A stretch of 24,171 nucleotides of DNA, taken from a virus. Both the position numbers and the translations under genes were made by a program. Location: positions 1 to 24,171 of IMG/VR virus record IMGVR_UViG_3300021956_000468; one strand, written 5' to 3'. The notes beneath the pieces are model-generated. The model saw only the letters and a program-made list of their open reading frames with translations, searched no databases and was not told the DNA's origin. Of the stretch, positions 1 to 17,717 are shown one piece after another. Numbering within the stretch: position 1 is the stretch's first letter; every line of letters begins with the position of its first letter.

Positions 1-516
1 GCAGCTTTGCAACAGCTTTTGAATGATGTTTTCAACGTCCTCACCCACATAACCGGCTTCGGTCAGGGTGGTGGCGTCAGCCATGACAAAAGGCACATTC
101 AACATGCGCGCCATGGTTTGGGCCAATAAAGTTTTGCCAGAGCCTGTGGGGCCAATCAGCAAAATATTGCTCTTGGTCAGCTCGACATCGTCTTTCTTGG
201 ACGACGCTTTGTGCTTCAAGCGTTTGTAGTGGTTGTACACCGCCACGGCCAACGTGCGCTTGGCCGGTTCTTGGCCAATCACGTAGTTGTCGAGGTTAGC
301 TTTGATTTCTGCGGGCGTGGGCAGGTCGTTGCCGTTTTCTTTGGCCGCTTCTAGACCTGGCAACTCGTCACGGATGATTTCATTGCACAAGTCAATGCAC
401 TCGTCGCAAATGAAGACCGAAGGGCCTGCGATGAGTTTTTTGACTTCGTGCTGGCTCTTACCGCAGAAGGTGCAGTACAGCGTTTTCTCGCCAGAAGCGC
501 TTTTTTTATCAACCAT
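1..516 (-). CDS. clpX: ATP-dependent Clp protease ATP-binding subunit ClpX (partial, C-terminus beyond window)
   Basis: The first 172 residues of ClpX, the AAA+ unfoldase that recognises tagged substrates and feeds them into the ClpP chamber in the cytoplasm. Reading from the ATG at 516, a four-cysteine zinc-binding domain is visible (C15, C18, C37, C40), followed by the linker and the start of the AAA+ module with Walker A GPTGSGKT at residues 122-129. The frame is open to base 1, so the Walker B, sensor and C-terminal regions are missing only because the window ends. It lies 35 bases after clpP, so it is probably cotranscribed, although no clear Shine-Dalgarno sequence precedes its ATG. The assignment is secure from sequence and context. 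Confidence 0.97.
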
Positions 517-551
517 GTCGTGTTTATGTTTGTGTGTGCGTTGTCTGTCGT

Positions 552-1160
552 TTAGCCGCGCTTGCTGATCACTTGATCAATCAAACCGTACTCTTTGGAC
601 TCGTCGGCACTCAGATAGTAATCGCGTTCGGTATCGCGCTCGATTTTCTCAAGCGGCTGGCCGGTACGCTCAGCCAAGATGCGGTTCAATTGGTCGCGCG
701 TCTTCAAGATTTCACGGGCGTGAATCTCGATTTCTGTGGCTTGGCCACGAGTACCGCCCAAAGGCTGGTGAATCATGACCTTGGAGTTGGGCAAAGCAAA
801 GCGCTTGCCCTTCTCGCCTGCGGCCAACAAGAACGCGCCCATGCTGGCGGCCATGCCGATACACAGCGTGGACACATGAGGCTTGATGAAGTTCATGGTG
901 TCGAACACCGACATACCCGCACTCACCGAGCCGCCGGGGGAGTTGATGTAGAGCGAGATGTCCTTATCGGGGTTCTCGCTCTCAAGGAACAACAATTGCG
1001 CCACCACCAAGTTGGCGGTTTGGTCGTTGACCTCGCCCACCAAAAAGATCACGCGCTCTTTGAGCAAACGTGAATAGATGTCGTAAGACCGCTCGCCGCG
1101 GCCCGACTGCTCAATGACCATGGGGACCATGCCCAAGGCTTGTGTATCCAGTGCGCTCAT
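552..1160 (-). CDS. clpP: ATP-dependent Clp protease proteolytic subunit ClpP
   Basis: A 202-residue serine protease that forms the tetradecameric barrel of ClpXP/ClpAP. The catalytic triad is visible with the family spacing: S106 in the GMAASMG motif, H131 in MIHQPLGG and D180 in ERDYYL. The oxyanion-region glycines (SPGGSVSAG) are also intact. The length matches ordinary bacterial ClpP. The ATG at 1160 follows AAGGAAACAAC, a usable ribosome site, and the gene begins 20 bases after the tig stop, consistent with a tig-clpP-clpX operon. Nothing is truncated or unusual; this is a normal host housekeeping gene. Confidence 0.98.
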
Positions 1161-1180
1161 GTTGTTTCCTTGTAGGAGGA

Positions 1181-2491
1181 TCAGGCTTGACCCATCAATT
1201 CGTCGAATGAAATCGCTTTGGCGTTGACCTTAGCTTTAGACAAGATGAAGTCAGTCACGTTGTTTTCAATGACGATGGCTTCAACTTCGCCCAAACGGCT
1301 CATGTCGCTGTAGTACCAACGCACCACATCGGCTGGCTTCTCGTAGCTAGAGGCCAGTTCTTCGATGTGCGCTTTGATTTGCTCAGCCGTGGCTTGCAAG
1401 TTGTTGGCGCGAACCAAATCAGCCACCACCAAGCCCATGCGCACGCGCTTTTCAGCTTGTGGGCGGAACACGTCGTCAGGGATCGGGGCTTTGTCAGCGT
1501 CTTTGATGCCACGGGCCTTGAGGTCAGCGCGAGCGCCTTCGACCATGCGGTCGAGTTCAGCTTGCACGCTGGCGTTTGGCAGGTCGAGTTCAGCCTTAGT
1601 GGCCACAGCATCCAAAGCCGCTTGCTTGTTGCGACCCAACAAGCGGAATTTCACTTCGCGCTCGAGGTTGTTTTTGATGTCAGCGCGCAAGCCTGCCACG
1701 GTGGCTTCAGCCACGCCCAAAGACTTGGCCAATTCGTCGGTCACTTCTGGCAAGTGAGCGGCTTCGACTTTCTTCAAAGTCACCAAGAAATCGGATTGTT
1801 TGCCGGCCACGTCTTTGCCGTGGTAGTCAGCGGGGAAGCTCAGGGGGAAAGTCTTGCTTTCGCCCGACTTCATGCCGCGCACCGCATCTTCAAATTCTTT
1901 GAGCATTTGGCCTTCGCCGAGCAAGAACTGGAAGTCTTCGGCTTTGCCGCCTTGGAATGGCTCGCCGTCAATCTTGCCTTCGAAGTCGATGGTCACGCGG
2001 TCGCTGTCTTGAGCGGCACCGTCCAAGCCACGTTGGGCGAAGGTGCGGCGTTGCTTGCGCAAGATGTCGATGGTTTTGTCGATGGCAGCATCTGTCACTT
2101 CGGCAGACACGGTTTCAACGTCAACACCGGCCATGTCAGCAAACTTCACTTCTGGGTACACCTCGAAGATGGCTTCGAATTGCATTTCACCTTCAGGCGC
2201 GCCTTCTTTTTCAGTGATGCGGGGTTGGCCAGCAACACGCAATTTGGCTTCGTTGGTCGCCAATTGGAATGCTTCGCCCACTTTGTCGTTCATCACTTCG
2301 AACTGGGTGGAGTAGCCGTAGCGCTGAGCCACGATGTTCATCGGCACTTTGCCTGGACGGAAACCGTCAATCTTGACTTGGCGTGCCACGCGCTTCAAAC
2401 GCACGTCCACTTCCTTGGTGATGATGTCCACAGGCAACGACAAGGTGATCTTGCGTTCCAATTTTTCCAAAGTTTCAACAGTCACGGCCAT
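1181..2491 (-). CDS. tig: Trigger factor, ribosome-associated chaperone and peptidyl-prolyl isomerase
   Basis: A 436-residue trigger factor, which binds nascent chains at the ribosome exit tunnel. The ribosome-binding signature GFRPGKVP is at residues 43-50, the same position as in Escherichia coli. An FKBP-type isomerase domain follows (about residues 150-245, beginning [16 protein letters not shown]), then the helical C-terminal chaperone arms. The ATG at 2491 has a good ribosome site (AGGAGA, seven bases upstream). It heads the tig-clpP-clpX cluster. It is the last clearly chromosomal gene before the phage block, and its promoter region is next to the presumed insertion junction. Confidence 0.98.
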
Positions 2492-2520
2492 GTGGTTTCT
2501 CCTAAATTGGCATGGTCAGC

Positions 2521-2538
2521 AGCGGCCTTGTGGCCGCT
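2521..2538 (-). promoter_or_regulatory. Hairpin in the tig leader
   Basis: A perfect inverted repeat, AGCGGCC and GGCCGCT separated by four bases, lies about 30 bases upstream of the tig ATG in the untranslated leader. There is no T-tract after it, so it is not a classic terminator. It could stabilise the 5' end or modulate translation. The structure is seen directly; the role is unknown. Confidence 0.45.
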
Positions 2539-2659
2539 TGCTATCAATCAAATGGTGCGCGGGGCGTGGGTCGTAAATCTAATTAAATCAACAACTTAAA
2601 CCCGTAACGCGGGATTTGTGCGGGAATCGAGGCAAAGCCGAATTCCGACTAAGCCTTAA

Positions 2660-2668
2660 ATTGTAGCA
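2660..2668 (-). promoter_or_regulatory. Candidate extended -10 element of the tig promoter
   Basis: On the minus strand the sequence TGCTACAAT gives an extended -10 (TGn) followed by TACAAT, five of six matches to the sigma-70 consensus, about 170 bases upstream of tig. The -35 position (TCATCT) is poor. It may be the native tig promoter, just on the host side of the phage junction. This is inference from a short motif. Confidence 0.35.
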
Positions 2669-2772
2669 ATAGGGGTGAGTATAGATGAGTGCCCCCATAC
2701 GACTACCCTTGTGGGGCTGGGGGCTGCGCTATCGGCTCCATCCATAACCGGGGCCGCCACGGCAAGGTCTCC

Positions 2773-2815
2773 CGCACTGATATTGCCGCCTCAGTGCGCC
2801 GCGTGGACTTCGCGG
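2773..2815 (-). terminator. Two abutting hairpins downstream of the endolysin (possible transcript end or processing element)
   Basis: In the transcript sense, a 5-bp stem CCGCG/CGCGG with a seven-base loop (2815-2799) is followed without any gap by an 8-bp perfect stem CGCACTGA/TCAGTGCG with a ten-base loop (2798-2773). They begin about 15 bases after the endolysin stop. There is no T-tract, so intrinsic termination is doubtful. RNA protection, processing or a recombinase-arm site are alternatives. Confidence 0.35.
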
Positions 2816-2829
2816 TAATGTTGGCGGTG

Positions 2830-3261
2830 TTAAAGAAGATTTGCCTCTGTGGTCCTTCGCTTGACTAGGCCGGGCAGCACTCGGCCACCTCCGCGCACCC
2901 AGCGCATGAGTTGATCTTTGGCTTGGTCCCACTGGCCAGCATTGACCACCCGGCGAAGCGTTGACGCCTGCAAGGACCCAAGCCCCAAGTTGTAGGCAAA
3001 GTCAGCAATGGCGCTCAAGCGGTCGCCTTTGAGGTTTGGGCAAAGTGCGAGCGTGCCGCGTGAGAACTTGAGCGCATCCATGCGCATGCGCTGGTCGGCG
3101 TACTCTTGAGTCCATGCCCTGCCGGGGAAAACGTCAGCCCCAGTTGAGCCCCACCCGCACGTCCAAACGCCAGCCGGGCACAAGTACGGCACTAGCTTGC
3201 ACCCTTCAAAGGTGCGAATCAGCTCATAGAGCGCGGCTAATTCAGCCTGCTCGTTTGTCAC
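2830..3261 (-). CDS. Phage endolysin, GH24 (T4-type) lysozyme
   Basis: A 143-residue muramidase that cuts peptidoglycan at the end of the lytic cycle. The family's catalytic arrangement E-(8)-D/C-(5)-T is visible as E19, C28 and T34, with Cys in the middle position as in the lambdoid R and P21-type enzymes. The downstream AIADFAYNLGLGSLQASTLRRVVN segment is also typical. The start is a GTG at 3261, inside the last codons of the upstream membrane-protein gene, giving a 20-base overlap and probable translational coupling. The N-terminus is not hydrophobic, so it looks like a canonical holin-dependent rather than a signal-arrest endolysin. It is the last phage gene before the chromosome. Confidence 0.9.
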   Translation of the reverse strand: MTNEQAELAALYELIRTFEGCKLVPYLCPAGVWTCGWGSTGADVFPGRAWTQEYADQRMRMDALKFSRGTLALCPNLKGDRLSAIADFAYNLGLGSLQASTLRRVVNAGQWDQAKDQLMRWVRGGGRVLPGLVKRRTTEANLL

Positions 3262-3712
3262 GGTTAATCACCCGGGTGGCGAAGTAGAAGCCGATGATTA
3301 CGCCCACCAGCTCACGGTCCCAGTCGCTCATCTTCCAGCCTTGGGAATTCAGCGCGCACACCCAAAGGTAAAGCGCCAGCGAGGCGGCGGCTGGTCGGAT
3401 GACGCCATTCCAAAGGTCAACCAACAAGATGCCCGTCTTCTCTGTGGCCCGGCTTGTTGCCTGCAAGAAAGCGTTGGCATCAATCCGGGCAATATCGGCG
3501 TCAGCTTGGACCATCACTTCTTTGACGCCCAACTCGGCTTGCAGTCGGATGCGCTCACAGTCGCGGGCATGCCGCTTATCGTCCAGCTCCGCTTGCAGGG
3601 TGAGCATGGCTTGCTCATGCTTGTGGTCTTGGGCTTTGGTCCACATGGCGGCCAGCTGGCCCCAAACCATGCGGAATGCCGCACCACCCAAGAAAGAAAT
3701 AATCGCGCTCAT
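3242..3712 (-). CDS. Holin-like membrane protein next to the endolysin
   Basis: A 156-residue protein. The ATG at 3712 was chosen over one six codons upstream because GGAGG sits at correct distance before it. It has a short hydrophobic N-terminus (about residues 1-24), a charged, probably helical middle (about 28-82), and two hydrophobic segments near the C-terminus (about 105-121 and 134-146), ending in a basic tail (RVINRDKRAG). This layout resembles the three-helix holins found with phage and gene-transfer-agent endolysins, and its overlap with the endolysin gene supports a lysis role. A spanin-like or other envelope role cannot be excluded. No separate Rz/Rz1 pair is visible nearby. Confidence 0.6.
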   Translation of the reverse strand: MSAIISFLGGAAFRMVWGQLAAMWTKAQDHKHEQAMLTLQAELDDKRHARDCERIRLQAELGVKEVMVQADADIARIDANAFLQATSRATEKTGILLVDLWNGVIRPAAASLALYLWVCALNSQGWKMSDWDRELVGVIIGFYFATRVINRDKRAG

Positions 3713-3766
3713 TGATGCACCTCCATGCACTTGATGCTATGGGTGGGTGCACTCAATGGCGGACAT

Positions 3767-6700
3767 TTATTGCAGGTCGTCGCGCTTGGTTCGCAAGATG
3801 TCGAGCTTGTCGCGCTGGCCTTGGTTGTAGCGCTCGCGGCTCTCGCTGGTCATGGACTGATTGCGGTTGGCGCTGCGAATGTTTGCCCGAATCTCGCGTT
3901 CCTCTTTGCTTATGTCGGCGCGCTGGTATTCGACGCCGCGCTCAGGGTCTACGGCGCGAATCTTGGTGCCTGTGAGCACGTCGGGCAACGTGGTCGAAAG
4001 CGGAATGGGGTCGCCTGCTTTGGTGCGCCCGGTGTACGGTCCAAACTCAGTGTCAAACGTGTAGGCAGCTGAGTCCATCAACTTGTTGAAGTTGAAGCTA
4101 CCCGGCACGAATGGCGCGTTGGGGGTGAGCTGCTTGTAGATGTAGCCAGCACGTGTTTGCGCAGCTTCCCAAGAAGTGTCTGACTTCTTCACCAAGTCTT
4201 TGCCGCTGAATGTGTCCACGTTCCACGCGATTGCAGCGGTCATGGTGAGCATTGGGTGCGAGGGCATCATGGGCGCAGGCACGGGCAAGCCGTTGGTCTG
4301 GTTGCTCACATCGAACAAGTCGCCCAAAGGCACCCGGCGCGTCACATCCATGAAGGCTGGTTTTCCCTCGACGTTGAACGGCATGCGGATGGCCCGGTGG
4401 GTACCAATCGCGGAGCGCCCTTGCATGTACTCGGGCAAGCCTTTGCGCTCTTTGTCTTCGTCGCCACCGCTGAAAAGATAGCCCAACCAGTTGGCACCAG
4501 CGAGCAAAGCAATGGGGGCCAGCAAGCGGTCAGGTCGCGTCATGGCCGTGTGAATCAGCATTGGCACGGCTTTGTAGGTGTACGCAAAGAACGGGCTATA
4601 CGTGCGCTTGATGAGCTCCACGCCCTCTGGCATATCGGCATAGTTGAAGATGTAGCGCTCAGTGTCCGTCACGGCATCGTCTGGCGACATCCCGGCTTTG
4701 CGTCGATCAGCGTAGATCATCAACTTGAAGAACTGGTCTTCAAACTCATAGGCGCTTTGCATCTTCTCGCGGTACCAACTCACGGGTTTGCCTGTCTTTT
4801 TCAAGAACTCGGCAACCTTGCCCACGCGTGAAGTGGCCACGCTCTCGATGTCGGACATATCCGCCAGGTCGGGCATGAGCAAGTTTTGGATTTCCAACGT
4901 CGCCCACTCGGTACCAAACAAGCCCTTGTCCACCGCCTCTTTGTAATACTCGCCTTTGGTGCGGTACTCGCGCACCGTGTTGCGCCAGTTGGCTGGGTTG
5001 GCCGGGTTCAAGCCAGCGAAGTGCATCACAAAAATGTTGCTCACCACGTTGTTGCCGTGGCTGACTGGGTTCCAAACGGTCTTGCCTTCTTTCCACAAGT
5101 TCAATGCCGTGTCGTAGGCTTGCATGAGCACGCCCTTGGGTTGCGTGTTGCGCTTGAGTGAGTCGGCCACTTGAGGCTCGACATACATCCCAGCCAGCGA
5201 GCCATAGGTCTTGGTACCGGGTGCGCCCTTGACCTCGACGTTTGGCACTTGCACCCAGCCGCCGGGGTTGTGCACCTTGGCCAAGTCGCTGTTGCTGGAG
5301 ATTGACTTGAACAGTCGGCCAATGGCCACATCGCGTTGGGTTTCCACATAGCCCATTGCGTAGCGAAGCACACCGTCACGGACCTCGCCCATTTCCTTGC
5401 GCTCGTCTTCGGTGAAGTCGCGCCACATGAGAATGGTTGTGCCGTTGTACTTGCTTGGGATGCCCTTGCCCGAGTCCATCGAGTCAAACAAGTCTTGAGG
5501 GATTTGCTCACCATCGGCCAAGCTGGAAATCTTCCAACCGAACTTTTGAGCCAACTCAACCTTGTTGACTGGCACCTCATTGACCAAGCCGCGCGATTGC
5601 AGGCGAGCGCCACGGATTTTCAAGCGGGCCTTGGTGAACCAAGATTGAAGCATCGCCTTATTGGTGAGCTTGGCCACCAGTGGCGTGCGGTACAAGCGAG
5701 GCAGGTAGTCTTTGACCAAGCGGTCTTCGGACAACATGCCCAGCTCAACCAACTCTTGCGCCTGCACATCAAGTGCCGCCGTGATTGATGCCGCCAGCTC
5801 CACCATTTCTTGCGGGGGAACGTCAGCCACCTTGGCTTGGTTTTCAATCATGTCGGACAAGAGCACGCGTTGCTCTGGCGTCAACTCCATGCCTGTCTCT
5901 GCAATGCGCTTTGCGTTCTCCGTGGCTTTGTTTTGGTCCACGCGGAACTGCCGCAACATTTGCTTGAATGCCTCGGGCTTGTTGTCGGCCATCTTGATTT
6001 GGCCAAGGTAGTCCGTCGCATAGGCGGCCATTCGGTCGTAGACCTTGCGGCCTGCCACCCACTGCTTGCGGCCAGCGGCATTGACCTCAACGCTGAATGC
6101 GTCCTTGGCATTGATGGGCTCAAACTTGCGCTTTGGCTTTCCGAGGTCCAAATCAGTTTGGTCTGCCTGCTGTTCTTCTCCCTTCATGGAGAAGGGCACG
6201 TCGGCCATGTCGTTCCAAGTGTCAGTGGCTGGCTTGGCATCCACCTCGATCTTGCCGAAAATTTCATTGATGAGCGCGTGGGCCTCGTCATTCTTCACAG
6301 AGCGCAAGTCGGCAGCGTATTTCTTCAAACCAAAGAAGTCCGCCAGTTGGGCAAGCCACTTTGTAACCACGGAGCGAACACGCTCAAGCACGGGTTTGTC
6401 TAGCGTGCCGCTGCGGTTTTCCTCTGCGAAGATGGCCAAGGTTTCATCCACGCCGCGCGCTTTGGAGAATTCCTCGCCATGCGTTGCCTTCGTGCGCTGG
6501 CCAACTTCGGTTTGCACCCAAGCGTCTGCTTCATTCTTGATGAAGCTGTCGCGCTCGTACAGTTTGGCCATTTGAGCTATAAACTGGTCTTTGGTCAGAA
6601 ATCGGCGCAAGCCATAGTGGAGCAATTCATGGAAAAACGTCCGTTGTACTTCGACTCGACTATGGAGGAAATCACGGAAAAGATAAATGCTGGAGTTGTG

Positions 6701-9700
6701 CAGAGCACCGGAAATTCCATCACTATCGCTTGCCCCCGGAAGTACCCCGACCGCAGTATCAAGCACCCGAATTACGGGTTTGTGCGCGAACTTCGCGAGC
6801 GCTTGGCTAATCTCATCTTCAATCGCGGACGGCGTTAAGCGCTCAGAAATATTGACGCCCTTGCCTTTGCCGCTTGTGCTGTAAATCTCCACCCCCTTGT
6901 CGCTGTCGCGGGTTTCGATGGCGCTAAAGAATTCATCAAAACCTGCTCGAATCGCTGGAATTTCGTCAGCCGTTGGGTATGGATAACTGTCATCCATCTG
7001 CATGCCAAGCGCAGCCATTGCTTTCCAAGTCTCAGGGTCAACAATGTTGGCCAAATAATCATTCGATGCACTTTGGTCTTGCAGTTTGGCAATCAAATAG
7101 CTCTCGAAGGCACGTGCCGACATTTCCACGTCAGTAGTCCAATAGTCTTTGCTGCGCTTGCCATCGAGTTGTGCAGAGCGTGCCTTAATGGCCGTCGAGT
7201 TAATCGCCTTCATCACGACGCCATAAGCGTCCACCATTTCTTTGCGCACACCTTTGTCTTGATACAAATACTTACTGCCAATCGAAGCGAGCTTCACATC
7301 GGTGGCGTCTGTCATCATGCCATCGGCTTTGTTGCGCTTGCGTGAGAAGTAGTTGTCCAGCGCGTGCCACCATTCATGGCCAAGACTGCCAGCGCCATTT
7401 TTCTTGGTGAGGTTAATAACCACCATGTCGGGCTCATAGTGAGCGGCGGCAGGACTCACACCACCACTACCACGGGCGCCAAACGCAAGGCCCAGCTCGC
7501 CATTGAGCGAGATAGCTTTTGGTGGCACTTCAAGCACAGCGGCCATGTCCATCAATGCGTCGTATGCGTCATTGAGGTCTTGCTGGCGGCGGCCTTGAGC
7601 AACCCAGTTACCAAACTCCACACCACGGAAACCAAACGCGGCGCCAAACATTTGAGGCGTCACATCCTGGCCGTTGCGCATATCTTCACCCACGCGCGGC
7701 TTGTTTGTGTCGCGGCGCTCACGTGGAATTTCTTTAGCCTTTTCCAATTTGTCCACCAGCTCGGCTTGGCTTTCAGCTTTGTAGGTGCGTGCCTCTTTGA
7801 CCGTGGCGAATGGCCCGGCCAAGTCGATGTAATTGCGGCCCAGCTTCTTGCCAACAAAGAAACCATCGACACGGTGCTTTGAATAAATATCGAAGGTGAC
7901 TTGCTTCTTGGCATCCGCTTTCGCGTTCATGCCCGCATACATTTCTTTGAACTTGGTGAGGACTTCTTCTTTGGTGTTACCTGCGGCGATGGTGCGCGGC
8001 CAGCTACCAAATGATGTCGACTTCGCCTTTTGCTCAATCACCCACTTGGTCACATTCTTCTCGCCCGAATAGAGCGAATAAAAGTGCTCATCCATCGTGA
8101 TGCCATCAAGTGATTTATCGTGACCAACTTCCAAGTAAAGCTCAACGCGTCCTTGCAGTGGCTTTAGTGTGCGTGACTCTTGCAACAACTTCTTGGCTTG
8201 TGCTGCGGAGTTGTCGCCAGGTGCCATGATTGAACTGGCCATTGAGCGAAGGCTCTTGACCTGCTCTGCCCAGCGTTTTACCTTGTAGCTTTGGCGTGGC
8301 TTGGCTGGAATTTCGTCGCGTGCTGCACGAATAAATGCCACGGTCCAGGGGTCAGTGCCGTTATCGAGTAAAGCTTGATAGTCAGGCTGCGGCCAAACCT
8401 TTGAAAGTGGTTGCAATGCAATGTCGTCGTCAACAACTTCGCCAAGTTGGTCCTTGAATGAAGTCCACACGTCTTTTCGTGCGCCACCAATCTTCTGGCC
8501 AAAGTCTGCGATTTTGTCTTGCGCCTCGGTTGGAGTTTCGGCTTGTGTCACTGGCTTGTTGCTGCGCTCAATCACTTCGTCTTTGGCTGAGAACATAGTC
8601 GAGTGAGTGCGCGGTGATGAAGTTGAAACCCATTCGCCATCGCGCTTGCCAACGCCTTCAACGGTCACGGACCAGTTGCCGCCATTCCAATCAAACGATA
8701 GGACGCGGCTGTTTGTTTTCCAATAGTCGCTCTTGATGATGTTGCCCACTGCAAAGTGGTCTTCGAGCTTGGCGCGTAATTCTGCGGTGCTCTCTTTGCG
8801 TTTGCGTGCTGGCTTGGCTGGTGCTGCTGCTGGCGTCGCTTCTGGCGCTGGCTCTACCTGCGCTTCTTCTGTTGCTGGGGCACTGAAAATATCTTGCTGG
8901 CCAGACAATGAATCTTCGGCGCTTTGACCAAGCTGAAAGTTATCTGAACTGGCACGCTGACGGTCAGCAATGTCTTTTGCCTCGCGCTCTGCCTTGGCGT
9001 TTTGTTCTGCCTCTCGGTCTAGGCGCTTGCGTTCTTGCTCGGCCTGTTCGAGCTTGGCCAAGCGGTCCTCAATGTCTTGAGGCGTGTAGCTGGTTAGTCC
9101 GTCTTGCTCTGCCAGTGGCGTGTAGGTGACGCGGGTTGCGCGATAGTTGCGTCCATCACCAACATTTTTCCCAGTCAAGGTAATGCTTGTGTTCTGGGTT
9201 TCATCATTAACTGGCATGGCATGAGTTGCCAGGCCCATGATTTCGCGCCATTGTTCAAATTGCGCTTTGTTCAACCGACCGTTTGAGACCTCTGTTTTCT
9301 TTGTGAACTTCTCACCGCTGTCGGATGTGAATTCTTCTGTATCAATGGTTGCGTTAGCCAACAATTTGTCGGCCAAAGAAATTAGCTGGTCGTTGCTTTC
9401 TTTGGTTGGGGCTTCAATTTGCCCTCGCGGATTCCCTTGTTCACCACCATCTTGGCCAGCATTTCCACTGCTTGTGGACTTGGTTGCTTCGGCAATGGCT
9501 TGGGTGAAGGCGTCTTTGGCGTGTTCATAGTATTCGTCTTGGGTGGCGTGTGGGTACTGTACTGCGATTCGCTCCAAAATGCTTTCGGCATCAATGCCTA
9601 GCGCATCCAGTTGGGCGGCATACGCGGCAACTTCGGTTTGCAGTTCTGGGGATGCTTGTTCAAAGCCTGCATCATCTTCTTGGCTTAATCCGAAGTCATC

Positions 9701-11998
9701 AAGTGGTGCAAACGGGTCGAAGTCAGCCTCTTGCGCAGCCTCTTGCTGGCTGGCCAAGTAGTCTTGAAACTGAGTTTGATGCTCAAGCTCTGCCATGTGC
9801 TCCCAGCCTTCATCGGTGTACTGGGGGTTGCTGACACTACGCTTGATTAAGTCATACGCTGCGCGCTCGCTGTCTTCTTTGAGATAACCATATTCCTTCA
9901 AAGCCTCGGTCGCCTGGGCAATGGTCATGCCTTTGCCGCTGCCCGCAAAAAGCCAGCGATTGCCGATTTTGATGTTGCCCTCAATCCCCAGGTTTGAGCG
10001 CTCGCTTGGAGCCATGCCGCCACGTGATGCGATGAACTCATGCGCAGCCATTGGTTTGCCTTTGGAGCCAGCTTCTGAGCTGGCCCCACGAATGCGCTTG
10101 GCCGCCTTTTCTTCTGCGGCAAGCTGTGCGGGCGTCTTGTCAGCCAGCACAAATCCGCCTTTGACTTGCTTGACTCGCATCAAAGGTTGCAGCTTCTTGG
10201 CTTTTTGAGCTTCGGCTTTTGTCTTGAATGGGATGCCGCCTTCATCAATGCTTTGGCCCTCCTGGCCAATATGGCCCGTGATGGTTTTTGCTTGACTAGG
10301 GATGAACGGAATTGAGGCGGCTACATTGCCAGCGGGTTGGGTATTTGCTGGTGCGACTTGTTCTGAAATTTGTCCATTGGACTCCAATGATGTAGCGCGC
10401 ACCTCTGGCTGAGTTGCTGCATTTCCTGTGAGGTCCAGTTGCCCGGCGTCGCGTACTCGTTGCAAAGCTGCCATGCCTGGGTCTGCGTCAAGTGGCCCGC
10501 TTCCAAGGTCGCTTGAATCCACATTGTGTAAATCATTTGCTGTGCCATCGGCCACGGGTTCCTTGTCGAGTTGAATGTCATCGGCCACGGGGGTGAGTTT
10601 TGGCGCATTGAGCGGGCTGTCTTGTGTCGCAGTTGAGGCAATAAGGTCAGCAAGCGATTGCGCGGCCATTGGCGGCGCTTCTGCGCTTGGTTGCGCCTCT
10701 GGTGCCAATGGTGCGACTTGAGCAGCTTGCGGCTCAGATACGGGTGCCTGCTGTGTAACTGGTGTTGGTGTAGTGCCAAAGATTTTTTGCACGGCTGATT
10801 GATAGTCAGCAAGTGTGGGCGCTGCGGGGGATTGACCTTGGCCAGAAGGCGGCAACGATGGGGCGACGGGTGGCACTGGGACGTGACGCGCCGACAATGC
10901 GGCGCCAGGCACGGTGCCAGCCAAAGTGTCAATTGCAGCTTGGCCAAGGCCCTCAGTGATTTTTGTTTGGCCATCAATGCCGCCAACAGTTGCATTGCCT
11001 ACGGCTTGAGGGACAAGGGTTTCAGCCAGCTCGCCTGCCCATTCAATCAATGCACGGCCAGCACGTTGCTTGAGGCTGTTGCCCACTGCGGTGCCAGCGA
11101 TGACTTTCTCCAAACCTGTGGAGCCTGAAACCAATCCTGTGAGTGCGCCCGCGGCTTGCGCGGGCAGAGCTTTGATGGGGGCAAGTAACGCCACGGCTTC
11201 CTCATGCGGGATGCCTTTTGAAATCAATTCCTGGTATTGGCCATCGTTTTGCCATACTGAGGCTGGCAAGTTGCGCAGCACATCAGCGGTTTGACTTGCT
11301 GCGTCACCCGCGTTTGAAAGCGCATTGACGGTGCCCATGACTTTGGTGCCAGCACCAAGCATGCCTAGTCCGATAGTCGGACCAACGGAGCCAGCGCCAC
11401 GAGCAACGACATCAAGCCCGGCAGCGGGTTGCGTGAAAAGCGAATTGAATGCCGCACGTGCTGCGGCCACCTCTCCACCATTTTTCTTGGCTGCGTAAAT
11501 CTCAAAGTCACGTTTGGCTTGCTGGTCCCGCAAGTCATCAGACTTCAAACGGTCGGCGCCTTTGTTGACGGTCTCAAAAAATTTACTGACTGGGTTATCG
11601 CCAGCATTGATGTTGTCCGTAACGCCCTTGGCCATGCCATAAGTGCCTTGGTACAAACCAAGCACCGTGTCAGCTATTGCACGGGGAACGCTGCGCTCTT
11701 GAGCGGGGGTGAACTCGCGCGCTTCTCGAACTGGGAAAGCTGGCTTAGGTGCAGGCGTGTCATCCAGTGCGCGTGCTGCATGACTAGCGGCAGAAAAATC
11801 AAACTTGGTTGGGTCTGGTGCAATACCTTGGAGCACGCTTCGTTGACGTGGCGCAGCGGCGGCCAGAATCTCAGCGGACATCGAGCCCATAGGGTCGCCC
11901 GTGGGCTCAATGCTTTGGCTTTCTCCATCAAGGGCCCCTGTGAACTCTTTTAACTTGGGTGTTGCGTCAAGTTTTCCGTTGAACTCACGAAGGGCCAT
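3767..11998 (-). CDS. Giant polyvalent-type virion protein with two HExxH metallopeptidase motifs
   Basis: A single intact frame of 2,743 residues; the ATG at 11998 has GGAG six bases upstream. Residues 1 to about 375 are Gly/Ala-rich and helical-looking, as in ejected internal virion proteins. About 375-565 is a Pro/Ala/Gln linker. About 645-705 resembles a small polyvalent-protein module. A charged coiled coil lies at about 975-1020. About 1165-1255 and 1365-1550 resemble large polyvalent protein-associated domains; the latter looks like LPD5 and ends in HEWWH (1541-1545). A second zinc-peptidase motif, HELLH, lies at 1790-1794, with E1852 in DETLAIFAEE a possible third ligand. About 2300-2520 resembles an LPD38-like region with a hydrophobic stretch. 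By position it replaces the largest internal proteins of T7-like phages, so it is probably packaged and injected. Domain names are from memory of family patterns. Confidence 0.75.
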   Translation of the reverse strand: MALREFNGKLDATPKLKEFTGALDGESQSIEPTGDPMGSMSAEILAAAAPRQRSVLQGIAPDPTKFDFSAASHAARALDDTPAPKPAFPVREAREFTPAQERSVPRAIADTVLGLYQGTYGMAKGVTDNINAGDNPVSKFFETVNKGADRLKSDDLRDQQAKRDFEIYAAKKNGGEVAAARAAFNSLFTQPAAGLDVVARGAGSVGPTIGLGMLGAGTKVMGTVNALSNAGDAASQTADVLRNLPASVWQNDGQYQELISKGIPHEEAVALLAPIKALPAQAAGALTGLVSGSTGLEKVIAGTAVGNSLKQRAGRALIEWAGELAETLVPQAVGNATVGGIDGQTKITEGLGQAAIDTLAGTVPGAALSARHVPVPPVAPSLPPSGQGQSPAAPTLADYQSAVQKIFGTTPTPVTQQAPVSEPQAAQVAPLAPEAQPSAEAPPMAAQSLADLIASTATQDSPLNAPKLTPVADDIQLDKEPVADGTANDLHNVDSSDLGSGPLDADPGMAALQRVRDAGQLDLTGNAATQPEVRATSLESNGQISEQVAPANTQPAGNVAASIPFIPSQAKTITGHIGQEGQSIDEGGIPFKTKAEAQKAKKLQPLMRVKQVKGGFVLADKTPAQLAAEEKAAKRIRGASSEAGSKGKPMAAHEFIASRGGMAPSERSNLGIEGNIKIGNRWLFAGSGKGMTIAQATEALKEYGYLKEDSERAAYDLIKRSVSNPQYTDEGWEHMAELEHQTQFQDYLASQQEAAQEADFDPFAPLDDFGLSQEDDAGFEQASPELQTEVAAYAAQLDALGIDAESILERIAVQYPHATQDEYYEHAKDAFTQAIAEATKSTSSGNAGQDGGEQGNPRGQIEAPTKESNDQLISLADKLLANATIDTEEFTSDSGEKFTKKTEVSNGRLNKAQFEQWREIMGLATHAMPVNDETQNTSITLTGKNVGDGRNYRATRVTYTPLAEQDGLTSYTPQDIEDRLAKLEQAEQERKRLDREAEQNAKAEREAKDIADRQRASSDNFQLGQSAEDSLSGQQDIFSAPATEEAQVEPAPEATPAAAPAKPARKRKESTAELRAKLEDHFAVGNIIKSDYWKTNSRVLSFDWNGGNWSVTVEGVGKRDGEWVSTSSPRTHSTMFSAKDEVIERSNKPVTQAETPTEAQDKIADFGQKIGGARKDVWTSFKDQLGEVVDDDIALQPLSKVWPQPDYQALLDNGTDPWTVAFIRAARDEIPAKPRQSYKVKRWAEQVKSLRSMASSIMAPGDNSAAQAKKLLQESRTLKPLQGRVELYLEVGHDKSLDGITMDEHFYSLYSGEKNVTKWVIEQKAKSTSFGSWPRTIAAGNTKEEVLTKFKEMYAGMNAKADAKKQVTFDIYSKHRVDGFFVGKKLGRNYIDLAGPFATVKEARTYKAESQAELVDKLEKAKEIPRERRDTNKPRVGEDMRNGQDVTPQMFGAAFGFRGVEFGNWVAQGRRQQDLNDAYDALMDMAAVLEVPPKAISLNGELGLAFGARGSGGVSPAAAHYEPDMVVINLTKKNGAGSLGHEWWHALDNYFSRKRNKADGMMTDATDVKLASIGSKYLYQDKGVRKEMVDAYGVVMKAINSTAIKARSAQLDGKRSKDYWTTDVEMSARAFESYLIAKLQDQSASNDYLANIVDPETWKAMAALGMQMDDSYPYPTADEIPAIRAGFDEFFSAIETRDSDKGVEIYSTSGKGKGVNISERLTPSAIEDEISQALAKFAHKPVIRVLDTAVGVLPGASDSDGISGALHNSSIYLFRDFLHSRVEVQRTFFHELLHYGLRRFLTKDQFIAQMAKLYERDSFIKNEADAWVQTEVGQRTKATHGEEFSKARGVDETLAIFAEENRSGTLDKPVLERVRSVVTKWLAQLADFFGLKKYAADLRSVKNDEAHALINEIFGKIEVDAKPATDTWNDMADVPFSMKGEEQQADQTDLDLGKPKRKFEPINAKDAFSVEVNAAGRKQWVAGRKVYDRMAAYATDYLGQIKMADNKPEAFKQMLRQFRVDQNKATENAKRIAETGMELTPEQRVLLSDMIENQAKVADVPPQEMVELAASITAALDVQAQELVELGMLSEDRLVKDYLPRLYRTPLVAKLTNKAMLQSWFTKARLKIRGARLQSRGLVNEVPVNKVELAQKFGWKISSLADGEQIPQDLFDSMDSGKGIPSKYNGTTILMWRDFTEDERKEMGEVRDGVLRYAMGYVETQRDVAIGRLFKSISSNSDLAKVHNPGGWVQVPNVEVKGAPGTKTYGSLAGMYVEPQVADSLKRNTQPKGVLMQAYDTALNLWKEGKTVWNPVSHGNNVVSNIFVMHFAGLNPANPANWRNTVREYRTKGEYYKEAVDKGLFGTEWATLEIQNLLMPDLADMSDIESVATSRVGKVAEFLKKTGKPVSWYREKMQSAYEFEDQFFKLMIYADRRKAGMSPDDAVTDTERYIFNYADMPEGVELIKRTYSPFFAYTYKAVPMLIHTAMTRPDRLLAPIALLAGANWLGYLFSGGDEDKERKGLPEYMQGRSAIGTHRAIRMPFNVEGKPAFMDVTRRVPLGDLFDVSNQTNGLPVPAPMMPSHPMLTMTAAIAWNVDTFSGKDLVKKSDTSWEAAQTRAGYIYKQLTPNAPFVPGSFNFNKLMDSAAYTFDTEFGPYTGRTKAGDPIPLSTTLPDVLTGTKIRAVDPERGVEYQRADISKEEREIRANIRSANRNQSMTSESRERYNQGQRDKLDILRTKRDDLQ

Positions 11999-12001
11999 TT
12001 A

Positions 12002-13312
12002 TCACTCCAATTGGTATTTCTTCCCGTCTGGACCTTCATAGACTGGTTTGCCATTTGAGGTGCCAATCTGCTTGTAGCCAGCGGGGACAGTGGCATCAAT
12101 TTTGGGAGTCTCCGTGCTGACTGGCGGATTTTTGGCACGGTTCTTTTGCTTGGCTGCCGCGACGTATGAGGCTTGGTTTGATCGCTCCGCATCGGACAGT
12201 TTTGACAAGACACCTTTGATGATGTCTTCTTCGCTTGTTGGCTTGTCAGTGCCTCCAAACAGTTTGGAAATTGCACCCGCCTGCTTAGTGCTTGGGTTGG
12301 CCAATTCGGTTGCAAGTTGTTGCACTACGCTTTGGTCCAGTCCAAGCATGTCGTTGTATTGGTCGGGCACACCCTTCTCTCCAAATTTGGCAGTGCGGGC
12401 CTTTTTAATGCGCGCCAAGATGTCGTTGTCTTGAGGCGTCAAGTCCATCGAGTTCTTGCGCAGTACCGCGGCCACGGCCTCGCGCGGCATGTCTTCCACA
12501 TATTTGCGGGCGGCATCTACGTCTTGATTGGCCCGGAGCTGGGCATTGGTCAAAGGCTTGCCGCCGCCCCCGGAATCAAGCGCATCACCTTCGAGTGTGT
12601 GCTTGCGTGCCGAAGCGCTGGCATTGCTTGCTTGGGCATTGTTCTCATTGGCCTTTGAATTTTCAACGGCGCCGAAAATCTTGGCCAACACTGGGTTGGC
12701 TTCTACTTGTCCGCCAGTGAAGTTGTCCAGGCTGTAACCCGTGTTGCCCACATTGTCAAAAAGCGGCTTTCCCGCTGCTGCTGCGTTGGCCTTGCCGTAG
12801 TTGACGGCCAGGGCTGGGTTTGCCACAACAGCATCAATGCCTCGACCTTTTTGCTCGTCAAGCGCAGCTTGGGTCCCTTGGTGCACATTGCTGCCAGTGG
12901 CATACATGCGCTGCATCACGGAAATGGCTTGGCCAAGTTTCTTGACCGTATCTGCATCCGCTGGTGCTGGCATCACTGGGCCAACGCCATCCGCCGGGGC
13001 TTCGTAGCTTGGCCCAAAGCTGCCAGTCTCCAGTTTGTTCTTGAATGCCGGGGCAAGGCTGGTTGGCAAGCCAAGACTCAGCATGGCGTTTTCAACTGGC
13101 GTTTGCTGCAAAGCGAGCTCATTCTTTTTGAGTGCTGCTTCTGCACCGTATTTCTCGCCTGCCATCTTGTGCATGTAGAGGCTGGCCTCTTTGCCCATTG
13201 CATCTTGTGCATATTTTTGTCGGACGGCCTCACCTTGGAAAAGTGCACCAAGGCCAGAGCCCACGCCGCTACCTGCGGCTGCCCAGGGGTTATCAACTGC
13301 GAATGTTGGCAT
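12002..13312 (-). CDS. Presumed internal virion (ejection) protein, 436 residues
   Basis: A 436-residue protein not recognised as a named family. It is rich in Ala, Gln, Asn and Lys, has a short Gly/Ala-rich N-terminus (NPWAAAGSGVGSGLGALFQG), long stretches that look helical, and a C-terminal motif (about residues 410-436) of the type GYKQIGTSNGKPVYEG, which is common at the ends of phage structural proteins. It lies between two similar helical proteins and stops two bases before the giant gene's ribosome site region, so it is in the same operon. Position and composition suggest an internal protein ejected with DNA, similar in place to T7 gp14/gp15. Ribosome site is weak (CGGATAAGCC before the ATG). 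Confidence 0.6.
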   Translation of the reverse strand: MPTFAVDNPWAAAGSGVGSGLGALFQGEAVRQKYAQDAMGKEASLYMHKMAGEKYGAEAALKKNELALQQTPVENAMLSLGLPTSLAPAFKNKLETGSFGPSYEAPADGVGPVMPAPADADTVKKLGQAISVMQRMYATGSNVHQGTQAALDEQKGRGIDAVVANPALAVNYGKANAAAAGKPLFDNVGNTGYSLDNFTGGQVEANPVLAKIFGAVENSKANENNAQASNASASARKHTLEGDALDSGGGGKPLTNAQLRANQDVDAARKYVEDMPREAVAAVLRKNSMDLTPQDNDILARIKKARTAKFGEKGVPDQYNDMLGLDQSVVQQLATELANPSTKQAGAISKLFGGTDKPTSEEDIIKGVLSKLSDAERSNQASYVAAAKQKNRAKNPPVSTETPKIDATVPAGYKQIGTSNGKPVYEGPDGKKYQLE

Positions 13313-13322
13313 GGCTTATCCG

Positions 13323-14048
13323 TTACTTAAAAATGTTTTTGAATGCAGATGCAAAGTTATTGGTGTCGCCCGTCCATCCTTTGTTGGTGTTGAGCGTTGC
13401 GATTGGGTCAGGGCTCATATTGGCCGCGGTAATGTCTGCGGATGTCACGCCACCAGTCCCACCCATTGCTGCACCTGCGCCGCCTGCTGTTTGAAGCAAA
13501 CTGCCCATGAACATTTTTGAGGCATCTGGTCGGCCTGCTACTTGGATGGCAATTTGGTCCGCGGCATTTTGGCCGCGTGAGAAATTGTTGAGCTGGTCAA
13601 TGGATTGACCTGTATTCATCAAATTAATGTCTTCGCCCATGCGCAAACGATTTGAAGCCGTTGTCTTGCCAAGCAAAGCTGCGAGCTGCTGGGCTGCCTT
13701 GACGGAATTCAATTCCGATTGAGCTTTGGCGGTGGTGTAGTCACCAGATACATTTCCCTGAGTTGTACTTTGCTGTGAGCGAATTGCCTGGCTCTCGCTG
13801 ACCGGAGTAATCAAGTCTTTTGTGATTTGGTCAGCGATTTGGGTTTGCGCTACTTTTCGATCAGCGGGTGCAAAATCTTGCGCAGCGCCAACAGCTTTTT
13901 GCTCGGCTTGCATTTGCAAGTCGCGTTGACGGCTAAGGCTTTCGCGAATGGCTGCGTTTTGTCGCTCTTGTGCGTCAGAGCTGGCTTGGTACTGCATGTA
14001 CGCGCCAGAAAGTAATGCCGCAAGGGCGTATGGGGTTATCGGGTCCAT
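13323..14048 (-). CDS. Presumed internal virion protein, 241 residues
   Basis: A 241-residue protein with a hydrophobic, Ala-rich N-terminus (ITPYALAALLSGAYMQYQ), a central helical region rich in Gln, Ala and Ser, and a Gly/Ala-rich segment near residues 185-200 (LLQTAGGAGAAMGGTGG). The start is strongly supported by GGAGG seven bases before the ATG. I cannot assign it to a family, but the composition and location between the nozzle region and the giant virion protein match podovirus DNA-ejection proteins such as the P22 gp7/gp20/gp16 or T7 gp14 groups. The function is inference. Confidence 0.6.
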   Translation of the reverse strand: MDPITPYALAALLSGAYMQYQASSDAQERQNAAIRESLSRQRDLQMQAEQKAVGAAQDFAPADRKVAQTQIADQITKDLITPVSESQAIRSQQSTTQGNVSGDYTTAKAQSELNSVKAAQQLAALLGKTTASNRLRMGEDINLMNTGQSIDQLNNFSRGQNAADQIAIQVAGRPDASKMFMGSLLQTAGGAGAAMGGTGGVTSADITAANMSPDPIATLNTNKGWTGDTNNFASAFKNIFK

Positions 14049-14061
14049 ATCTCAACCTCCC

Positions 14062-14832
14062 TTATTTGCCAGCGTATCGCGTGAGTGGCGACGACACACC
14101 AAAGTTTTGTTGGCCATAAGCCATGCCAGCGGTCGTGCCCTGGTTCGCTTGATTCATCAAGTAAGCATTGCTCAAGTCGCTGAATAAGTTGCCGACGGTT
14201 GCGCCAGCGCGGGCTTGGGCTACGTTGTCAGCATTGACTTTCAAGCCTTCAAGTGCCATCGTGGCGGCAGAGCCCGTGTCAATGCCAGATTGCGCCATGC
14301 TCAAAAGATTGGAGCGCGTGCGCTCGTCTGCTGTTTTCAAGTCGGCAGCGCTTTGGTCGGCGATACCACCAGCGCGCAACAGACCTTCATTGGTTCGGCG
14401 GTCAAGCTCTTGATTACTGTCGACATCAACGGAGCCGCCCATCAAGCCATTGCGAGCCAGGCCAAAACGGTTGTCACGCTCTGCGACTTTGGCTTGTCGG
14501 TCCACCTCTAGCTTGTTGAGGTCATACACGTTTGATTTTTGGTCCGCGTACATGGCATCGCGCGAATTGGATGGGTCTCCATCAACCCAGTTGCCATTTG
14601 CATCTTGCACTTTGTTGTTGAACACATTGTTAATAGTGCTGGTTGCCGCCTTGATACGTGCCTGGCGTTCTTCTTCTTGACGCCGAGCTTCTGCACCAGG
14701 GTCTCCACCACCACCGCCTTTGTGGGGGCGCATGCGCTCTCCAGCACGACGCGGCCATGCACCGATTGCTGGTCCACCAAACTGAGCCGATAGTTCGGAC
14801 TCAAGCTGCTCAATCGTCATTCGGGTTTGCAT
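14062..14832 (-). CDS. Presumed internal virion protein, 256 residues
   Basis: A 256-residue protein with a charged N-terminus, a short run of glycines (HKGGGGGDPG, residues 37-46), an Arg/Glu-rich helical stretch and a long Ala/Asn/Gln-rich helical region, ending in GVSSPLTRYAGK. GGAG is six bases before the ATG at 14832. It is probably cotranscribed with the two following internal-protein candidates. Its position directly after the 138-residue GNAT-like gene corresponds to T7 gp14. No catalytic motif is visible; the role as a DNA-ejection component is inference. Confidence 0.6.
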   Translation of the reverse strand: MQTRMTIEQLESELSAQFGGPAIGAWPRRAGERMRPHKGGGGGDPGAEARRQEEERQARIKAATSTINNVFNNKVQDANGNWVDGDPSNSRDAMYADQKSNVYDLNKLEVDRQAKVAERDNRFGLARNGLMGGSVDVDSNQELDRRTNEGLLRAGGIADQSAADLKTADERTRSNLLSMAQSGIDTGSAATMALEGLKVNADNVAQARAGATVGNLFSDLSNAYLMNQANQGTTAGMAYGQQNFGVSSPLTRYAGK

Positions 14833-14844
14833 AATTTCTCCAGC

Positions 14845-15261
14845 TCACAACTCAGTGCGCACCACTCGGTACGCGTTTTCAAATCCATATCGGCCAAGCA
14901 TTCGAGCCATTGCATTGCTGCATGACGCCTCAATCACCGTTGCCCCTGCACTTTTGCACCATGCGCGAAAAGTGACTAAAAATTCATCGGCAACCAAGTC
15001 CAAACCTTTTCCACCCATCGCCATGATGTTCACGGCAAGCGTTTGCGGGTAATGCACAAATTCAAATGCCAGTGCCATCACGGCTTCTCCGCCATCTTCA
15101 ATCACTGCGGTAATCACCCGGCCCTTCGCGTTGAGATCACGGATGTCATCAACCGTGAATTCGCCGCGTGCGGCCTGGTCAATCACTGGTTGCAACAATG
15201 GCTTGGCCAGGTGGAATTTTTGCTCTAGAAGCTCAGGGCTGGTGATAAATGTCACGTTCAT
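14845..15261 (-). CDS. GNAT-like small phage protein at the T7 gp13 position
   Basis: A 138-residue protein whose C-terminal half resembles the GNAT acetyltransferase fold: a strand-like segment (AVMALAFEFVHYPQTLAVNIMAMGG), a helix, then ATVIEASCSNAMARMLGRYGFENAYRVVRTEL, the usual C-terminal core in which a helix precedes a GF.....Y strand pair. A clear Q/RxxGxG/A acetyl-CoA loop is not obvious (MAMGGKG near residues 81-87 is the best candidate), so catalysis is unsure. The start codon directly abuts the upstream stop (TAA then ATG) with no good ribosome site, suggesting translational coupling. It has the length and relative position of T7 internal protein gp13; homology is not shown. Confidence 0.6.
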   Translation of the reverse strand: MNVTFITSPELLEQKFHLAKPLLQPVIDQAARGEFTVDDIRDLNAKGRVITAVIEDGGEAVMALAFEFVHYPQTLAVNIMAMGGKGLDLVADEFLVTFRAWCKSAGATVIEASCSNAMARMLGRYGFENAYRVVRTEL

Positions 15262-16647
15262 TTAGACCGGGCCCAGCACGTCGTAATAGAGCGTCACGGC
15301 ATCCAAGCGAAATGGCTTGTTGTCGTAGTTGCGGAACTTGAGCGAGAACTCGGTGCCGTCGCATCCAACGGGAATCATTCCACCCGGTCGGGTGTTGCCC
15401 TTGACGCTCACTGCGTCAGTGAATGCCGTTGGGTCCCGCACGTCGTAGCCCACGGAGAATTCGCAGCGACCTTCCATCACCAAATCGACGCCATGAATGA
15501 CTTTGCGCATGCCGGGGCTTTTGAGGTCCATGTACGGCAGCTGCAAGATCACCTCAAACAAAGCACCTTGGTCCGTGCTTGCGGCGGTGTCCAGCTTGTA
15601 AACGTTGTCACCTGAGCGGATGTAGAGCTCTTGGCCAAGCTCGGCAAAGGCGTCCACCGACTCGGGCAAGTAATACTGGCTCCAAGCGGCAATCTTTGAT
15701 GTGCGCGAAATCGAATACACAAACAAGTGATTGCCGATTGCGCAGATATATTGGCCAGTGCCGTAGAAGTAAAACGACTTTGGTGTGATGCCAGCCACCT
15801 TGGTTTCAGCGCGTACCAGCGAGTCAATCGGTGAGCCCACGTCCACGTCGGCCAAGTTGTTGGTCAGTTGCAGCGTGGTGATCGAGCGAAAGCCGTAGTC
15901 ACTCAAGAAGTACAAGTCGCCCGCGACGTTGGCCACAGAGCGTGGAAAGCTGGTGCCCACGTTTTCCACAATGGTGCCAAGCCGCATGTTGGCCGGGTTG
16001 GGGTCCACAAACCACGTTTGCGCGCCGTCCTTGGACAACACCACCAGCTTGCCTTGATAGATGCCCAAGGCGTTTGCGCTTCGGTCGCCGCGTGAGTTCA
16101 AGCCCGTTGGCAAGAAACCAGCGTCATTTGCTTCCGTCCAGTTGCGTGGGTCGCCAGTCTTGCAAAAGCGCACCGTGTCGTTGTTGATCGCAAACAACTT
16201 AGAGGCCAGCTTGACCACGCCTGCGCTGCTTGGACAGTTTGGGTCGGTGACTTGTGTGACGGCAGAGCCATCGAGATAGTGGTGCTGGACGGCACCCGTC
16301 GTCATTTGCGCGGCCACATAGATGTAGGCGTTGAACACGTCAACATAGGGCACGTCTTTGAGCACTTGGCCAGAGCCAAAGTCGATGTGGTGCGACTGGA
16401 AAAGTGGGTTGGCGTGGGTGATGCTGCCTTGCGAGTAGAAGGTGTGCAGCTTGCCAAACGCGGCAAACAATCCCTTGGTGCCAGCTTCAAGCGTTTGAAC
16501 CAGCGTGATGCCGGGGCGCTTTTGTGTGGCCAAACCCGTGGTGACATACGCATTTTTCATTTCGCGCAAGCGGTTGGCATCCGACACGGATGCGCCTTTG
16601 CGAAGGTCAATGCCTAAGTCAAATCGGTCAAAGGTAATGCTTGGCAT
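15262..16647 (-). CDS. Tail nozzle / packaged-DNA stabilisation protein
   Basis: A 461-residue beta-rich protein. The ATG at 16647 was chosen over an upstream one because it has CGGAG at the proper distance and begins two bases after the adaptor gene's stop. The N-terminus (about residues 5-50, FDRFDLGIDLRKGASVSDANRLREMKNAYV... LATQKRPG) and the repeating blade-like pattern (VVLSKDGAQTWF, LYFLSDYGFRSITT, LFVYSISRTSKIAAWSQY) are typical of podovirus nozzle or DNA-stabilisation proteins. The length is close to P22 gp10 and shorter than T7 gp12. It would close the tail tube and hold fibres. Family is well supported by pattern and by adjacency to the adaptor. Confidence 0.75.
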   Translation of the reverse strand: MPSITFDRFDLGIDLRKGASVSDANRLREMKNAYVTTGLATQKRPGITLVQTLEAGTKGLFAAFGKLHTFYSQGSITHANPLFQSHHIDFGSGQVLKDVPYVDVFNAYIYVAAQMTTGAVQHHYLDGSAVTQVTDPNCPSSAGVVKLASKLFAINNDTVRFCKTGDPRNWTEANDAGFLPTGLNSRGDRSANALGIYQGKLVVLSKDGAQTWFVDPNPANMRLGTIVENVGTSFPRSVANVAGDLYFLSDYGFRSITTLQLTNNLADVDVGSPIDSLVRAETKVAGITPKSFYFYGTGQYICAIGNHLFVYSISRTSKIAAWSQYYLPESVDAFAELGQELYIRSGDNVYKLDTAASTDQGALFEVILQLPYMDLKSPGMRKVIHGVDLVMEGRCEFSVGYDVRDPTAFTDAVSVKGNTRPGGMIPVGCDGTEFSLKFRNYDNKPFRLDAVTLYYDVLGPV

Positions 16648-16648
16648 A

Positions 16649-17356
16649 TCAGCTCCGCAGCGTGTAGCCACCGTTTGTCGTGCGCGCTACTTGGGGCTCA
16701 CGGTTGGGCTCTCCGGGGCTTGCAAAGTAGCGACGGTTTTCTTTTTGCAAGGACTTCTCTTTGGCGAGCATCACCTCAAACGATTTGGCAGGGGCCTGCG
16801 CATCGGGTTGGCGGTAATGGGCTTTGGCGTTGGCCAAGGCATACAAGAACACCAGTCGATGCGGCACGCTTGGGCGGTCGGACTGTTGCTCAAAGCGGCT
16901 CTTGCCTGCGGTGTACTCAACAATCAAGTCATAGGCGCGTTCAGGCACTGGCCACACTTCAAGCTGGCCGTTGAGGTTGTCGTACTTTTGAGGGCGGCGG
17001 CGCAGCGCTGAGAAAGCACGGTCGGCCTCGGTGATGCCTTGACTCATGGGCTCGCGGATGGTGTCCGATACTTTGAGCCAAATTGAAATCACATTGTTTG
17101 GCTCGATGAGCTCGTTCTCCACATCGTTGTGCCAGTCGTAGATGTAAGAGTCAGGGCTCAACACGATTGCAGTTTTCTTGCGCATGACGGGCGGCATGAG
17201 CTCGCTATAAATGAAGTCATGCGCTTCTTGCAAAAAGCTCTTGAGAATCACCTCGTTGTTTTTGATCGCAGAGCCTTGCATCACAAAGCCCAACCGACCG
17301 CGCAGCTCCGTGAGCAATTCGCCCATTGTTTTGTTGCGTGCTTCGAGTCCGTTCAT
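16649..17356 (-). CDS. Head-to-tail adaptor (tail tubular protein A-like)
   Basis: A 235-residue protein that likely forms the ring joining portal and nozzle. The open frame reaches 17446, but the ATG at 17356 is preferred: AAGGA lies eight bases upstream and the longer version would overlap the holin gene. The protein is helical at the N-terminus (TMGELLTELRGRLGF), has a beta middle (IVLSPDSYIYDWHNDVENELIEPNNVISIWLKVSD), a segment NGQLEVWPVPERAYDLIVEYTAGKSRF, and a helical end (SVPHRLVFLYALANAKAHYRQPDA). This pattern fits T7 gp11-type adaptors, and it is immediately followed by the nozzle gene, as in T7. Confidence 0.7.
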   Translation of the reverse strand: MNGLEARNKTMGELLTELRGRLGFVMQGSAIKNNEVILKSFLQEAHDFIYSELMPPVMRKKTAIVLSPDSYIYDWHNDVENELIEPNNVISIWLKVSDTIREPMSQGITEADRAFSALRRRPQKYDNLNGQLEVWPVPERAYDLIVEYTAGKSRFEQQSDRPSVPHRLVFLYALANAKAHYRQPDAQAPAKSFEVMLAKEKSLQKENRRYFASPGEPNREPQVARTTNGGYTLRS

Positions 17357-17366
17357 GGTTGAGTCC

Positions 17367-17675: not shown

Positions 17676-17717
17676 GGTGCGTGGTTCCTGTTCTGGCCGC
17701 TGTTGATGGGAAATTTC

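Follow-up and report, generated by a model that had tools for sequence, protein, structure and literature searches.

Two or more MPTases within one polyvalent protein have been reported before (Iyer et al. 2017, PMC5512222), and a few giant phage proteins have been studied experimentally. The Stx2 phage Sp5 encodes a 2,793-aa protein (ORF80) that is essential for infectivity; the deletion mutant still packages DNA and loses tail-fibre labelling. According to its authors, the protein would act in tail formation (PMC5155283), a role that could be purely structural. In the virion RNA polymerase of N4, an HExxH domain precedes a large helical C-terminal domain (PMC12633501). The DarB-like gp69 of the Bcep22-like phage JC1 (4,515 aa) was detected in purified virions (PMC9144972) and is an example of a giant phage protein whose presence in the virion is established.

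The window that we analysed, 24,171 nucleotides of the IMG/VR virus record IMGVR_UViG_3300021956_000468, contains a single intact gene at 3767-11998, with an ATG start, no internal stops and a product of 2,743 aa. It lies on the minus strand, which the initial annotation had not given. As that annotation had proposed, the product belongs to the polyvalent proteins of Iyer et al. 2017, in which between one and five zincins had been found before. It joins disparate domains in one phage-type chain (LPD5, a predicted zincin with LPD1, a second predicted zincin and a C-terminal part that we call the carrier), and its gene sits among late virion genes, downstream of genes for an adaptor, a tail-hub-like protein and a tail fibre. 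Its features are the following.

3767..11998, minus strand: giant polyvalent protein gene, 2,743 codons
9119..11998, minus strand: residues 1-960, variable N-terminal part rich in Ala, Gly, Pro and Gln, without known domain
7643..8053, minus strand: LPD5, residues 1316-1452 (Pfam PF18799, E 2.8e-39)
6911..7168, minus strand: LPD1, residues 1611-1696 (Pfam PF18796, E 4.5e-19)
6878..7651, minus strand: zincin 1 region, residues 1450-1707, overlapping LPD1 (from model, VIA-align and alignment of relatives)
7364..7378, minus strand: HEWWH, residues 1541-1545 (motif scan)
7124..7126, minus strand: E1625, predicted third zinc ligand of zincin 1 (invariant in alignment; in a helix of the model)
6209..6871, minus strand: zincin 2 region, residues 1710-1930 (RadC/JAMM in its place in relatives L006 and L008)
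6617..6631, minus strand: HELLH, residues 1790-1794 (HExxxH in most relatives)
6443..6445, minus strand: E1852, predicted third zinc ligand of zincin 2 (at least 90% conserved; in a helix of the model)
3770..6163, minus strand: C-terminal carrier, residues 1946-2743
4400..4738, minus strand: LPD38-like carrier segment, residues about 2421-2533, which also contains the match to PDB 9k3a_A

LPD5 and LPD1 were the only Pfam matches in the giant protein at E up to 1. The proposed array of LPD domains therefore stood for these two, while LPD38 (PF18857) gave no Pfam match at that threshold and is suggested by profile comparison only: the C-terminal profile is remotely related to the LPD38-bearing C-termini of enteric-phage-type relatives (probability 94%, E 1e-7). 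PHROGs matches of the giant protein were confined to families of unknown function, chiefly PHROG 616.

The left 2.5 kb of the window (1-2552) is bacterial, with trigger factor (tig), clpP and clpX on the minus strand, which rules out reading the whole window as phage. Contig L002 is 100% identical over 2553-18903 and different left of 2553. This break in identity marks the likely edge of the prophage, at about 2553 and immediately upstream of tig; L002 has only the phage side in common with the window. The phage carrying the giant gene is temperate. Among the scanned genomes, the carrier occurred in one Polynucleobacter (L089) and one MAG labelled Bacteroidetes (L088); the latter includes a phage closely related to a family that was otherwise seen here in Polynucleobacter, a possible case of mis-binning. 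Elsewhere in the window, 19387-21306 (minus strand) encodes a tail fibre of collagen-like type; it matches the collagen repeat six times, and its C-terminus matches an S74-type chaperone close to the threshold. Upstream proteins of 436 and 256 aa had no credible solved relative, and the 436-aa protein also had no match among phage records.

HEWWH and HELLH lie exactly where the initial annotation had placed them, and the composition of the giant protein would yield only about 0.026 HExxH motifs by chance. In the AlphaFold model of residues 1450-1945 (mean pLDDT 75, pTM 0.54), both motifs are placed in a helix that is followed by a further helix with the glutamate. Around the first motif, H1520, H1541, E1542, H1545, D1548 and E1625 are invariant in an alignment of 39 relatives, as is the stretch HEWWHALD, and dN/dS of 0.08-0.10 against the closest relatives (L003-L005) indicates purifying selection. 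Foldseek searches of the PDB with the 1450-1945 model returned no significant match, and zincins appeared only upon a second look with VIA-align. There, matches of 1450-1707 were almost exclusively zincins, the best being the catalytic domain of anthrax lethal factor (Z 8.2, 178 residues, 4.1 A), followed by 4l7a, aureolysin and M1 aminopeptidases; these top matches are zincins that cleave proteins and peptides. The core sheet, the HExxH helix and the second helix with its glutamate are all present in model and alignment, and peptidase 1 is accordingly modelled as a zincin-like domain with good structural matches. A histidine ahead of the motif and an aspartate three residues behind it fit the widespread phage-type MPTase clade of Iyer et al. 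2017.

For peptidase 2, the H and E of the motif do not vary among the 39 aligned relatives, conservation of E1852 is at least 90%, and dN/dS against L003-L005 is 0.145-0.17, again indicating purifying selection. The motif, E1852 and the predicted order of elements agree with a zincin layout, and AlphaFold places the motif in a zincin-like domain whose structural matches are weak (1710-1922; best MATCAP, Z 5.5-5.7 by VIA-align). By their conserved ligands and selection, both predicted zincins are candidates for active metallopeptidases. The two motifs had been said to stand in different contexts, and indeed they belong to separate predicted zincin-type domains: profile comparison gave a homology probability of only 1.5%, no detectable homology, and we rejected a duplication as their origin.

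Among relatives of peptidase 1, pairing with a second motif is near-regular. A second HExxH or HExxxH, mostly HExxxH, lies downstream in 61 of the 64 non-redundant peptidase 1 relatives. Peptidase 2 itself was found in 51 of them, its motif intact in every case (12 HExxH, 39 HExxxH); of the 13 others, ten have another HExxH downstream, one is a cut contig, L008 has RadC/JAMM and L074 no recognised motif. HEWWHALD served as a search pattern, so the intact peptidase 1 HExxH is partly by construction; the second motif was not a search term. Tandem zincins thus appear from sequence to be the rule in one clade, as against about 8% of the MPTase proteins in Iyer et al. 2017, and scans for HExxH overlook most second peptidases, these being HExxxH. 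This form, usual for peptidase 2 of relatives, fits another MPTase set in Iyer et al. 2017.

The carrier (1946-2743) matches no Pfam family (E up to 1) and no PHROG, and is under purifying selection (dN/dS 0.12-0.13 against the closest relatives). It recurs in more than 80 loci, duplicates counted, either fused behind up to ~2,900 payload residues, or nearly alone as an 850-916-aa protein, or, in some phages, as a separate gene adjoining a large payload gene. When its profile was compared with PDB sequences, it matched 9k3a_A (E 3e-7), with one clear stretch of 57 residues and a weak second stretch in the same order. 9k3a_A is ORF26L of Anabaena phage A-4L (cyanophage A4), and 9k3a_B is the product of the next gene, ORF27L. 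Beside ORF27L lies ORF28L, the ten-copy 'Internal protein' of 9k2v, an entry titled cyanophage A4 pre-ejectosome; from the neighbouring genes and the adjacent PDB code we infer that 9k3a would be part of the ejectosome. The carrier is distantly related to a protein of solved structure. Foldseek found no significant match in the PDB for the carrier model, and its VIA-align matches were mostly short C-terminal helices, which we set aside as evidence; a match to the N4 polymerase (Z 6.2, rmsd 16.6) is weak and suggestive only.

Upon comparing what precedes the carrier in different phages, we observed that payloads are exchanged on it. L006 and L008 (carrier 82-83% identical) have LPD5, peptidase 1 and LPD1 in common with the giant protein, and a RadC domain with an HxHPSG JAMM motif stands where residues 1706-1932 would be. 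L011 (carrier 62% identical) combines GGDEF with an HExxxH peptidase 2 and lacks peptidase 1. L088 (69% identical) has RadC alone and L086 (53% identical) RadC and ART, both without HExxH or HExxxH. Since carriers occur without a zincin, the peptidases are payload and unnecessary for carrier use. L004 presents the converse case, with both peptidases kept (about 90%) and a different C-terminus. Among the 23 distant carriers scanned for payloads, nine have ART, eight Zeta toxin, and single ones RelA/SpoT, Acb1 (anti-CBASS) and others; the Acb1 and Zeta_toxin fusions ahead of distant carriers would imply that anti-defence or toxin-type enzymes enter with the DNA.

Payload and carrier also occur as separate genes. 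In Pseudoalteromonas phage Y3, two zincins share one gene and the carrier is in the following gene (E 4e-9). In two split-gene phages, a ferritin-like gene of 162-163 aa lies between the payload and carrier genes (L149, 8286-8777; L103, 8129-8617). Most split-gene phages with enough upstream ORF (within L101-L169) have one HExxH there, which the profiles for peptidases 1 and 2 do not cover. We had suspected that fused giants and HExxH go together and dropped this idea, as split-gene phages have HExxH in a separate upstream gene.

Taken together, we consider it probable that the product of the gene is a polyvalent ejection protein delivered by the virion and made of carrier and payload, with zincins that probably act after ejection. 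Active-site conservation with the zincin model, the relation to A-4L, gene fission and payload exchange all count for this explanation, as do the need of Sp5 for its 2,793-aa protein and the finding of the JC1 giant in virions; weighing against it, the clear match to A-4L ORF26L spans only 57 residues, and Foldseek was empty for both models. The carrier, the last ~800 residues, would bring the chain into the virion and have it ejected together with the DNA, and the front part (LPD5, zincin 1 with LPD1, and zincin 2) would be the payload. The zincins would most likely become active post-ejection, and their targets may be conserved proteins of the host, the payload chain to which they belong, or both. 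The claim that the peptidases act on particular proteins in the cell just infected, for example a conserved host target or proteins of defence or restriction, has slightly less than an even chance of being right: effector-type enzymes (ART, Zeta toxin, GGDEF, RelA/SpoT and Acb1) swap with zincins on the same carrier, and zincin 1 with its LPD5/LPD1 partners is strongly conserved across phages of unrelated hosts, a conservation that is equally compatible with a self target. Self-processing, in which the zincins cleave their own chain before packaging or after entry and release working parts, stands nearly level with host targets, itself somewhat short of even. It is the general role proposed by Iyer et al. 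2017, P1 DdrB has been proposed to be processed before packaging, and the fission of payload and carrier genes in relatives indicates that the parts can function as separate chains. Against it, the N4 virion polymerase is packaged unprocessed and carriers free of zincins exist (L086, L088). Moreover, Y3 retains zincin 2 although its carrier is already a separate gene, and therefore carrier release cannot be the sole task of peptidase 2.

A protein with tail or neck duties only, its zincin folds being mere scaffold, is improbable. It would account for the phenotype of Sp5 lacking its 2,793-aa protein, with DNA-filled heads and no tail-fibre labelling; the zincin active-site residues, however, are invariant and under purifying selection, and the wholesale exchange of payloads speaks against a role as scaffold only. 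Less probable still is the suggestion of the initial annotation that the peptidases substitute for a murein hydrolase and open up the envelope. Phages of such type must pass the cell wall, and no murein hydrolase domain was recognised in the giant protein (Pfam, E up to 1). Yet the protein also gave no peptidoglycan-binding or hydrolase signal, a phage lysozyme gene adjoins just downstream (2830-3261), PHROGs gave a weak match of amidase type for a neighbouring gene (15262-16671), the structural matches of peptidase 1 act on proteins and peptides, and the relatives with zincin-free carriers speak against an envelope role. Returning to the ejection protein, we tentatively extend this explanation, at somewhat less than even odds, to a carrier derived from an ejectosome, which many phages would use as a shared vehicle for delivery. 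Its exchangeable modules would include a near-obligatory pair of unrelated metallopeptidases (zincin 1 with zincin 2 or, rarely, JAMM/RadC), the two acting as one unit inside the infected cell.

Compared with the known systems, the giant protein resembles the phage-type polyvalent proteins of Iyer et al. 2017 (PMC5512222) in its size and multi-domain build, its LPD5, LPD1 and LPD38-like parts, its HExxH zincin and the HExxxH variant of relatives; it differs in a carrier that is absent from Pfam and PHROGs. Stx-phage records have the core of LPD5, zincin, LPD1 and second zincin in common with it (about 35% identity), as well as the late-gene position. They differ in a second motif of HExxxH form and a C-terminus with Pfam LPD38, only distantly related to the carrier here. 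By these Stx-phage hits and PHROG 616, the giant protein is likely a relative of Sp5 ORF80. JC1 gp69, likened by description, is also a giant protein of many domains, encoded late among the virion genes, with methylase/helicase-type domains according to its authors. The N4 virion RNA polymerase is likewise a giant ejected protein in which an HExxH domain is followed by a helical C-terminal domain; by contrast, it contains an RNA polymerase, and its structural match to the carrier is weak. A-4L ORF26L (PDB 9k3a_A) shares distant sequence similarity with the carrier, in two stretches in order, and differs as a separate 1,114-aa protein without a zincin, the A4 murein hydrolases residing in the neighbouring internal protein. 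Paired zincins as such were already known. What is new here is the near-regular second motif, the carrier with its relation to A-4L, and the exchange of payloads on it: a previously unannotated domain of ~800 residues is tied to a solved phage protein and has its payloads swapped in nature, which makes testable both the loading and ejection of giant virion proteins and the targets of polyvalent-protein zincins.
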